The position numbers were made by a program, and so were the translations under genes. A model generated the notes under the pieces. It had not been told where the DNA came from and made no database searches. It saw only the letters and a program-made list of their open reading frames with translations. From Hemibagrus wyckioides (Eukaryota > Chordata > Actinopteri > Siluriformes > Bagridae), in assembly GCF_019097595.1 (NCBI RefSeq), contig NC_080715.1, positions 10,062,073 through 10,126,072 on the forward strand: 64,000 bases of DNA, read 5' to 3'. Each line of letters opens with the position of its first letter. Positions within the stretch are counted from its first letter, which is position 1. This document shows positions 24,564 to 27,500 of this stretch, one piece after another.

Positions 24564-27500
24564 GTAAAAGTTGCACAGATTCTGTCTAGTCATAACCTTA
24601 CACAGCGAATCTCTGACTTGTGTGTTTGTGAGAGTTAGTTAGCATCCTTCTTGTTCAAGGACACATGTGCTCTCTCTCTCCCTCTCTCTCTCTGTGTGTG
24701 TGTCAACTTATTTGTGAGGGCTTCACTGATTGCCTTTTAGAGCTAGAATGATGACTGAGCATTTGAGACTTTCTGTCTTTCTTTCTTTCTCTCTCTCTCT
24801 CTCTCTCTCTCTACTTATAATGTATTAACCAATTCACAATGGAAATGATGTGCAAAGCTTTGTGTAATGAATCTCAAACTCCGTGTCCTTCTTTCGACTT
24901 TCCGTCTTGTATTTCACTGCTGCTTGGCGTAGCACACTTTAGTAACCTCTGAAGTAGTATTTGACATTGCCGGCTCTCTGCATCGCAGTACTGCAGATAA
25001 AAGAGGGAGGAAGTATGATTCACTCACCTCTGTGTGCATACGTGTGTGTCCCGCGTAGATAAAGCAACGGTGAATGACTTTGAGTGTGTGTGCGAGGGGC
25101 AGTCATGCGGCAGCGACGGCCGCTGCTTTGGCCCGCAGTGCTTCTCGTCGGTCTCCATCCGGAACGGGACGGCCCTGCGACAGAAGGGGTGCGTTGTGGG
25201 TATGGAGGAAGAGGCGGTACAGTGCGGAAGCTCCCCGCTGGAGTCTGGCGTCATGGTGCAGTGCTGCCAGGGAACACTGTGCAACAGCAACCTTACTGTG
25301 GAGATGCCAAGCTCAGGTGAGTCTCCTGATTTTCATGAAGACAAGCATTGCAGTAACACCCCTGAACAAGAATTACACAGTTCCAGGACAAATTCCTGGC
25401 TAGCATTCCCATTAACATTATTATTGAAGTATATTTATCAGTATATCTAGAATTTATATACACACAGGATAATCTAATCCAGATTGGCATATGCAGACCA
25501 GGATAATCTAATCTAGACCAGTATATACACCAGAATTATCTAATCTACACCAGTATATACAAACTACGATTATCTAATCTAGACCAGCATATATACACCA
25601 GGATTATCTATACACCAGGATAAACCAATGTAGACCAGCATATATATTCCAGGATTATCTATACACCAGGATAAACTAATCTAGATCAGCATATATACAC
25701 CAGGATTATCTATACACCAGGATAAACTAATCTAGACCAGCATATATACACCAGGATTATCTATACACCAGGATAAACTAATCTAGACCAGCATATATAC
25801 ACCAGGATGAACTAGTCTAGACCAGTGTCTATCTATCTATCTATCTATAGACAGATATATATATAGCTGTGTGTGTGTGTGTGTGCATGTATGTTTACAC
25901 CAGGATAAACTGATCTAGACCAGCATATATACACCAGGATGAACTAGTCTAGACCAGTGTCTATCTATCTATCTATCTATAGACAGATATATATATAGCT
26001 GTGTGTGTGTGTGTGTGCATGTATGTTTACACCAGGATAAACTGATCTAGGCCAGCATATATACACCTGGATATTCTAATCCAGATCAGGTTACTGAGAC
26101 TACTCTAAATTAATCTAGACTATCCTTGCATCAGACCAGCATGCACAGGGTATGCAGGATATCAAGCCTAGCATGCTTATTATTATGTTTCTCATCCATT
26201 TCTTCCTTTTCAGACTCCAGGCAGCATGAGTGTGTGTGTGAGGGAGCGGAGTGTGTCAGCGGAGGCCGGTGTGTAGGAGAGCAATGTTTCTCCTCTGTCA
26301 CGGTCACCAACGGAAACCTGCAGCACCGTAAAGGCTGTTTCTCTGCATCTCAGAGGGGCGGGGCTACCTGTGACACACCCAACTCACCTGATAGTGTCAT
26401 TAAGTGTTGCACAGGTCACCTGTGTAACGGCAACCTTACAGTAGATCCCCCAACTAGAGGTAAGAAAGGCTAGCTTTACTCATCCACTTCTAGTTGGATA
26501 TCACTTGCAGGCAGAAAAATAATCAACAATAGTCAGCCAAGTTGCCTTTTTGTACCATATCATATACCATAGCAATTATAGTTGCATTTAATATCATGGA
26601 CATCTGCAAAATAAATAATGGCTTAACCAAAGCTTTACAAAGATCTTACACTGGAGAGCTTATACTGTCCACTTCACTTTAACATATCAGTATGTTATAG
26701 AAAATGAATCAGCGGCTTGCGACCAATCAGATTCGAGCATATATCAGTGCTGTGTATTTGTATTGAAATTCTGCTGTCCTCTCATTCTTGTCCTCTCATT
26801 CATCTTTCTCTCATCCTCCCTCTATATAGACGCAGACCCGAAACTGCCTCCGAAAGAGCACGAGTGTGTGTGCGAGGGCCGTTCTTGCGTGACGGGTGAG
26901 CGGTGTATGGGACAGCAGTGTTTCTCGTCTCTGACCGTGAGTGACGGGGTGCTGGTCCATCAGAAGGGCTGCTTCACCGTGTACGAGCAGGGTCGCATGA
27001 CCTGCAAAACCCCGCCCTCACCTGACCAGATCGTCGAGTGCTGCCAGTCGCACCTGTGTAATATGAACCTCAGCGTGGCTCTGCCCGTCCGAGGTAACAC
27101 ACACACACAAATAAATTCCCACATACCAATTCGTATGTATTATACATGACCACTTAATTAATTATTAAGTTATTATTAATAATTATTGGCACCTCATTAT
27201 AGATACGCGAGTAGAAATGCATGTACATTTATATGTATTCATTTGGCTTTATGCAATGTGATTGTATAAATTCGTGAAAAATAGTTTGTAAAGGATTTTT
27301 AAATAGTTTAAAAGTTTAAATAAGAGAAAGCTTTATAGTTTCAGTCCCTAAAATCTCTGACTCTCTACACTTTCAAACACTAGTGACCCCATTTTCATGC
27401 CTGTAAGCCTGCACTGTGTGTCTCCTCACACCTTCACACACACACGCTGCTCTTTTTATTAGCCCCACTCTGACCACAGGCACGGTCAGTGAAACGCTTT

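Follow-up and report, generated by a model that had tools for sequence, protein, structure and literature searches.

The acvr1 gene of the catfish Hemibagrus wyckioides carries three successive ligand-binding domain (LBD) exons and is a further case of a three-LBD architecture already published for ACVR1 of other fishes. The order of these exons, their common frame, the cysteines that define the fold of each domain and the grouping of the gene with teleost three-LBD ACVR1 can be read directly from the sequence. We put at about even the chance that the product is a BMP receptor with three serial ectodomains, in which only the membrane-proximal one (LBD3) is likely to bind ligand in the manner usual for ALK2 and the outer two (LBD1 and LBD2) are likely folded regulatory caps; the residue changes in the outer LBDs suggest that these gave up the ALK2 beta4-beta5 epitope. 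To the published architecture we add a map of the residues that set LBD3 apart from the outer LBDs, an N-glycosylation sequon on the loop of LBD1 that faces BMP6, and observations on cyprinoid and shark models.

ACVR1 is mutated in fibrodysplasia ossificans progressiva, a disease for which fish serve as models. A receptor whose outer LBDs are without the activin-critical Tyr74, and whose LBD1 is predicted to bear a glycan on its ligand face, would differ from human ALK2 in how it senses BMP and activin.

Coding exons of acvr1 in Hemibagrus wyckioides

The window, that is, the whole stretch of 64,000 nucleotides of contig NC_080715.1 that was analysed, contains a complete acvr1 (ALK2) coding region on the + strand (24,497-39,864), whose eleven coding exons span 15.4 kb (Table 1) and splice to 675 residues with a single terminal stop. 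A preliminary description of this DNA had proposed three intact phase 1-1 LBD exons with full sets of ten cysteines and retained N-glycosylation sequons, read in one 675-residue frame into an ALK2 kinase, and all of this was borne out. Each LBD exon is preceded by AG and followed by GT, is entered and left in phase 1, and measures 258, 246 and 264 nucleotides, respectively; translated alone, each matches PF01064 above the Pfam cut-off of 20.9 bits, which excludes chance. Ten cysteines are found in each LBD, and N-x-S/T sequons start at residues 58, 100, 182 and 270 within the LBD exons, with a fifth at 284 beyond them. The spliced product is identical to the last 675 residues of the H. wyckioides protein model P0001 (740 aa), whose first 65 residues share no 8-residue word with any frame of the window.

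Table 1. Coding exons and the LBD1 sequon of acvr1, in window positions
Feature	Position	Strand	Basis
First coding exon (start codon and signal peptide)	24497..24563	+	ATG, frame, GT donor
LBD1 exon, outermost ectodomain	25059..25316	+	PF01064 35.7 bits; groups with LBD1 of other three-LBD fishes
LBD1 sequon, Asn58-Gly-Thr codons, beta2-beta3 loop	25163..25171	+	codon position
LBD2 exon, middle ectodomain	26214..26459	+	PF01064 36.4 bits; within otophysan LBD2 group (100/96)
LBD3 exon, membrane-proximal, ordinary ALK2 ectodomain	26830..27093	+	PF01064 41.2 bits; top solved match human ALK2 7yru, E 1.9e-34
Transmembrane and juxtamembrane exon	31133..31338	+	frame, splice sites
GS-box exon	33921..34020	+	TGF_beta_GS 59.6 bits
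Kinase exon	35198..35344	+	kinase best match ALK2 6eix, E 1.3e-214
Kinase exon	35433..35708	+	ALK2 kinase match
Kinase exon	36991..37188	+	ALK2 kinase match
Kinase exon	39079..39209	+	ALK2 kinase match
Last coding exon and stop codon	39730..39864	+	ALK2 kinase match

The gene is identified as ACVR1 by a GS box, an ALK2-type kinase and an ALK2-type membrane-proximal ectodomain, all present in the window protein. The best solved matches of the kinase are ACVR1 kinases, and LBD3 matches a second ALK2 structure (9n4k, E 3.2e-34) almost as well as its top match, the next being ALK1 at 1.9e-4. A single LBD is the classical criterion of ACVR1, and human ALK2/ACVR1 has one only (PDB 9n4k, 7yru; PMC12415261), whereas the window protein has three PF01064 stretches; three single-exon LBDs between the signal peptide and the membrane segment fit the three-LBD ACVR1 of Clupeocephala. 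Identities among the three LBDs are 0.45 (1-2), 0.44 (1-3) and 0.57 (2-3), and a recent tandem or assembly duplication is ruled out by this range of 44-57%.

Downstream of acvr1 on the + strand, at about 55,464-55,694, lies a single activin-receptor LBD exon (PF01064 38.5 bits) with ALK4 as its nearest solved relative; this is probably acvr1c, given the synteny of ACVR1 and ACVR1C. Between acvr1 and this exon there is a large minisatellite with a period of 30 bases (50,022-52,211 and 54,407-54,680, about 73 and 9 copies); two of its frames stay open for long distances, but it is a repeat. The intron between LBD1 and LBD2 consists mostly of tandem repeats with periods of 34-132 (25,455-26,072). 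Scans of the window for tRNA and Rfam families returned no matches.

Number of LBDs and phylogeny of the relatives

The preliminary description knew of no established account of such a receptor, and in this it was wrong. A three-LBD Acvr1 cDNA of medaka was cloned by Trumpp et al. 2023 (PMC10501582), who mention at least two transcripts of the gene. Expressed in cultured cells, the medaka receptor drives a SMAD1/5/8 reporter; it ranked first among the receptors compared in both baseline and BMP6 effect, in a test that included no LBD-deleted control. Jatzlau et al. 2026 (PMC13187141) count 12 LBD multiplications among ACVR1, BMPR2 and TGFBR2, and for ACVR1 they assign an LBD duplication to early Osteoglossocephalai and a triplication to Clupeocephala as a whole. 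Hemibagrus falls within Clupeocephala by taxonomy look-up, so the published triplication covers the catfish gene, and the idea of an undescribed system was rejected. Medaka olaAcvr1 is the same gene with the same architecture (three LBDs, membrane segment, ALK2 kinase); its cDNA was cloned and tested, whereas the catfish gene is known here from genomic sequence and a protein model.

The protein search with the 675-residue product that the preliminary description had proposed finds three-LBD ACVR1 in many fishes. Our three protein searches gave 165, 295 and 254 hits, of which the best 120 in each case were listed, as clusters at 90% identity, and the counts given below are of clusters rather than species, in rows that share ancestry. 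Among the matches listed, the 146 proteins fetched, some of which are incomplete models, have three LBDs in 68 cases, two in 23 and one in 55, as counted by the CC..CN motif at the LBD end. Three LBDs are found, among these matches, in catfishes, characins, knifefishes, a sucker, a loach, salmonids, pike, smelt, cod and many percomorphs; two in eels, tarpons, bonytongues, elephantfishes, herring and Phoxinus; and one in bowfin, sturgeon, bichir, tetrapods and most cartilaginous fishes. For residue comparisons we used 62 proteins, the window protein and 61 of the 68, leaving out P0001 (a copy of the window), P0122 (another gene), and P0007, P0022, P0025, P0050 and P0075 (GS motif not intact, or incomplete); P0010, whose LBD1 is damaged (5 cysteines), was kept in the 62 and is absent from the linker count (61).

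Six three-LBD proteins of 679-688 aa come from 'lgn'-tagged contigs of only 2,963-3,636 bases, and 'lgn' contigs of 2.1-3.6 kb also give two two-LBD proteins of 585 and 592 aa, with the 'lgn' proteins running from Met to the kinase end. Against the 15.4 kb of the window gene, contigs this short are most readily taken as assembled transcripts. The earlier reading of a tri-ectodomain receptor therefore holds for relatives, in these six proteins and the cloned medaka cDNA, and stands as a prediction from sequence for the window gene. The same material bears on the alternative that the LBD exons are a cassette, combined variously in transcripts to give one, two, three or different single LBDs. All 8 of the 8 include/skip combinations of the three exons keep the frame, and other fishes have models with LBD3 only (isoform X2 of Chanos and of Carassius, Anguilla, Oncorhynchus, Cyprinus), LBD1 only (Cyprinus P0121) and LBD2 plus LBD3 (Pholidichthys isoform 2); the transcripts mentioned for medaka point the same way. 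We nevertheless regard a cassette as improbable, because the six 'lgn' contigs and the medaka cDNA include all three LBDs and the single-LBD models may be incomplete or belong to a paralogue; it would also be compatible with regulatory outer LBDs rather than exclusive of them.

The kinase tree places the window gene among the three-LBD ACVR1 genes of other fishes and well away from P0122, which from PMC13187141 would be ACVR1L. By its kinase sequence, and with P0122 as the reference for the teleost paralogue ACVR1L, the window gene is ACVR1 and not ACVR1L. The LBD tree (133 rows, 74 columns, 62 named entries, three Hemibagrus copies left out) has many unresolved forks, but the first, middle and last LBDs are for the most part kept apart, although 4 and 5 changes are still needed to account for the labels LBD1 and LBD2 among three-LBD proteins. 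The LBD1 of Gadus and the LBD2 of Denticeps are placed apart, and the LBD2 of otophysans and that of euteleosts occupy different places. Two separate origins of LBD2 were not accepted, since a single LBD2 clade is compatible with the data (p-AU 0.436), though not proved.

Divergence of the outer LBDs and its bearing on function

All ten cysteines are kept in 61/62 LBD1, 62/62 LBD2 and 62/62 LBD3, while the mean pairwise identity over the 62 proteins is 0.572 for LBD1, 0.630 for LBD2, 0.785 for LBD3 and 0.962 for the GS box and kinase, indicating that the fold of LBD1 and LBD2 is maintained although their sequences change faster. This faster change is the one point in favour of regarding the two extra exons as unspliced remains or an assembly artefact, to which we assign a negligible probability; the cysteine counts over 62 proteins, the low identity among the LBDs of the window and the cloning of the medaka cDNA led us to reject it.

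The change is concentrated in one segment. We took as outgroup-conserved the 44 non-cysteine positions that are the same in at least 6 of 7 single-LBD outgroups. Within segment 39-57, chosen post hoc, the 16 such positions are kept at 0.167 in LBD1, 0.357 in LBD2 and 0.794 in LBD3, and the other 28 at 0.548, 0.632 and 0.703; the corresponding permutation values for the segment (0.0006, 0.015 and 0.78) are exploratory, the segment having been selected after the table was seen. By this residue count, the beta4-beta5 ligand segment is where LBD1 and LBD2 have changed most. Adding 32 to an LBD position gives the human residue number, in agreement with the C42-C48 loop (PMC12415261) and with how LBD3 aligns to 9n4k. 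The BMP-2 hot spot of BMPR-IA, Phe85-Gln86, lies on the beta4-beta5 loop immediately before Cys87 (PMC2946932), which we infer to be LBD position 49, and the ALK2 segment contains Tyr74 and Met79 (PMC12415261). Replacement of Tyr74 by Ala, Val or Glu abolished activin A signalling in ALK2-R206H cells (PMC12415261). Tyr is present at residue 74 in 58/62 LBD3 and in neither outer LBD (0/62 each), the window having Met in LBD1, Ser in LBD2 and Tyr in LBD3. Lys82 is similarly kept in 60/62 LBD3 and in 0/124 LBD1 and LBD2. The preliminary description had spoken of three ligand-binding modules; three ectodomain exons do exist, and ligand binding by all of them is doubtful, as the ALK2 beta4-beta5 epitope is kept only by LBD3. 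In human ALK2, changes of Tyr74 have little effect on BMP6 signalling and Met79Ala ablates signalling by neither ligand (PMC12415261), so the loss of these residues bears on activin rather than BMP6, and the sequence would speak against activin binding by LBD1 and LBD2 more strongly than against BMP binding.

For salmon, PMC12415261 reports Ser in place of Tyr74, and Tyr is found there in LBD3 of Salvelinus and Coregonus; the salmon sequence in that alignment may be a paralogue or another LBD.

Residue 71 is class-specific, being Ile or Val in 61/62 LBD1 and Leu in 47/62 LBD2. Fixation of such residues on a kept fold would also be expected if LBD1 and/or LBD2 bound a different ligand, a co-receptor or a matrix molecule. 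We consider this distinctly improbable, given that no such partner is known and that drift on a kept scaffold would also give fast change.

A second difference concerns the beta2-beta3 hairpin, where an N-x-S/T sequon is found in 57/62 LBD1, 6/62 LBD2 and 0/62 LBD3. Its Asn (0.98 conserved in LBD1) is the most conserved non-cysteine LBD1 residue that is unshared with LBD3, and aligns with human residue 61. From this loop ALK2 contacts BMP6 through Ser41, Asn60 and an Asp printed as 60, which is 61 by the numbering used here (PMC12415261), and LBD1 is predicted to be glycosylated on its ligand-facing loop. Within the 62, the sequon is missing from Myxocyprinus, Salvelinus alpinus, Hippocampus, the damaged P0010 and Oryzias melastigma, a congener of medaka that differs in this from the catfish. 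It is present in 6/9 of the first LBDs examined in eel-like fishes, tarpon, bonytongues and elephantfish (Anguilla, Megalops, Aldrovandia, Conger and two Paramormyrops, the exceptions being two Scleropages and Arapaima), as well as in Clupea, Coilia and Phoxinus, and is absent from Cyprinus P0121, from the single-LBD outgroup rows (0/8), and from Heptranchias and Chanos. Neither the LBD1 sequon nor the epitope change in ACVR1 LBD1 and LBD2 was met with in the literature covered, which was searched by other terms and did not extend to supplements, preprints and most subscription papers; the words 'glycosyl' and 'sequon' do not occur in the main text of PMC13187141.

These patterns are what would be expected if LBD3 assembles with BMP and a type II receptor, as in human ALK2, and LBD1 and LBD2 stand outward, folded, partly glycosylated and not using the ALK2 epitope, where they would tune access to LBD3. 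Skipping of a single LBD exon could then switch between long and short forms. A more specific version, which we put forward only tentatively and hold to be somewhat doubtful, is that LBD1 is a glycan-capped ectodomain that lost the ALK2 epitope and gained the sugar on the BMP6 loop before the elopomorph/clupeocephalan split, and that it was kept as a gate over LBD3, with exon skipping as the release.

In elephant-nose Bmpr2a and zebrafish Tgfbr2a, the outer LBDs show little binding and act as repressors (PMC13187141), which by analogy agrees with the reading of the outer ACVR1 LBDs as caps. These receptors have three and two LBDs, respectively, and resemble the catfish gene in having diverged outer LBDs and an inner LBD with the ligand epitope; they differ in being type II receptors, with each LBD split over two exons and with independent duplications. 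The LBDs dissected in the available part of PMC13187141 are those of BMPR2 and TGFBR2, as opposed to the ACVR1 LBDs considered here. The epitope change is seen in the three-LBD ACVR1 sequences, and lowered signalling would be the matching prediction, whereas the reporter data from medaka three-LBD Acvr1 point, in part, in the opposite direction. Two further observations speak against caps: LBD2 retains a predicted helix, and BMP6 contacts are often kept in the outer LBDs (Ser41 in 49/62 LBD1, Asp61 in 42/62 LBD2), while LBD3 itself varies there (residue 60 is Asn in 21/62 and Ser in 37/62, residue 61 is Asp in 18/62).

The helix comes from the predicted structure of P0022, a notothenioid orthologue (100 rows, mean pLDDT 71.3), so it relates to that protein and not to the window protein itself; the beta4-beta5 helix has 9 residues in LBD3, 8 in LBD2 and 3 in LBD1. 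A prediction for P0001 (45 rows) was poor, with a mean pLDDT of 45.5, and was discarded. Foldseek with the whole model placed the urokinase receptor uPAR in its top row, with a poor whole-chain fit (TM 0.15-0.20, rmsd 16.8); uPAR has three three-finger domains in series without a kinase, and a relation was rejected because domain count is the only common feature.

The medaka baseline and BMP6 effect would instead be explained if all three LBDs bound ligand and the receptor thereby gathered more BMP and signalled more strongly. In chicken TGFBR2 and in engineered human TGFBR2, ligand binding is increased by a pair of near-identical LBDs (PMC13187141), and the tolerance of ALK2 for Met79Ala and Tyr74 changes in BMP6 signalling would also allow it. 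We judge this alternative unlikely, for LBD1 is altered in its epitope segment and has gained a sequon on the beta2-beta3 loop, LBD1 and LBD2 change faster than LBD3, and the ancient outer LBDs of BMPR2 and zebrafish TGFBR2 bind little. The published data conflict, with repression by the ancient outer LBDs of BMPR2 and zebrafish TGFBR2 on one side and strong signalling by medaka three-LBD Acvr1 on the other, and the residue map given here makes this conflict directly testable.

Cyprinoid and shark ACVR1 models

All Cyprinoidei are said to have lost ACVR1 (PMC13187141). Three genera that belong to Cyprinoidei by taxonomy look-up (Phoxinus, Cyprinus and Carassius) have protein models that appear to contradict this loss: LBD1 and LBD3 are both present in Phoxinus phoxinus P0066 (592 aa), LBD3 only in Cyprinus carpio P0092 and in Carassius P0093, and LBD1 only in C. 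carpio P0121. In a comparison based on protein models, the cyprinoid kinases cluster with those of Myxocyprinus, Triplophysa and lgn2141 (95/88); this cluster is joined by the other otophysan genes (98/95) and lies at a distance from P0122, the putative ACVR1L. The LBD1 of Phoxinus and Cyprinus likewise group with those of Myxocyprinus and Triplophysa (100/89). If the loci hold up, these models would correct the published history of loss.

Among the sharks, the ACVR1 model of Heptranchias perlo (P0084) has two LBDs that differ at 2/74 residues and lie together among shark LBDs, and represents either a further duplication or an assembly duplicate.
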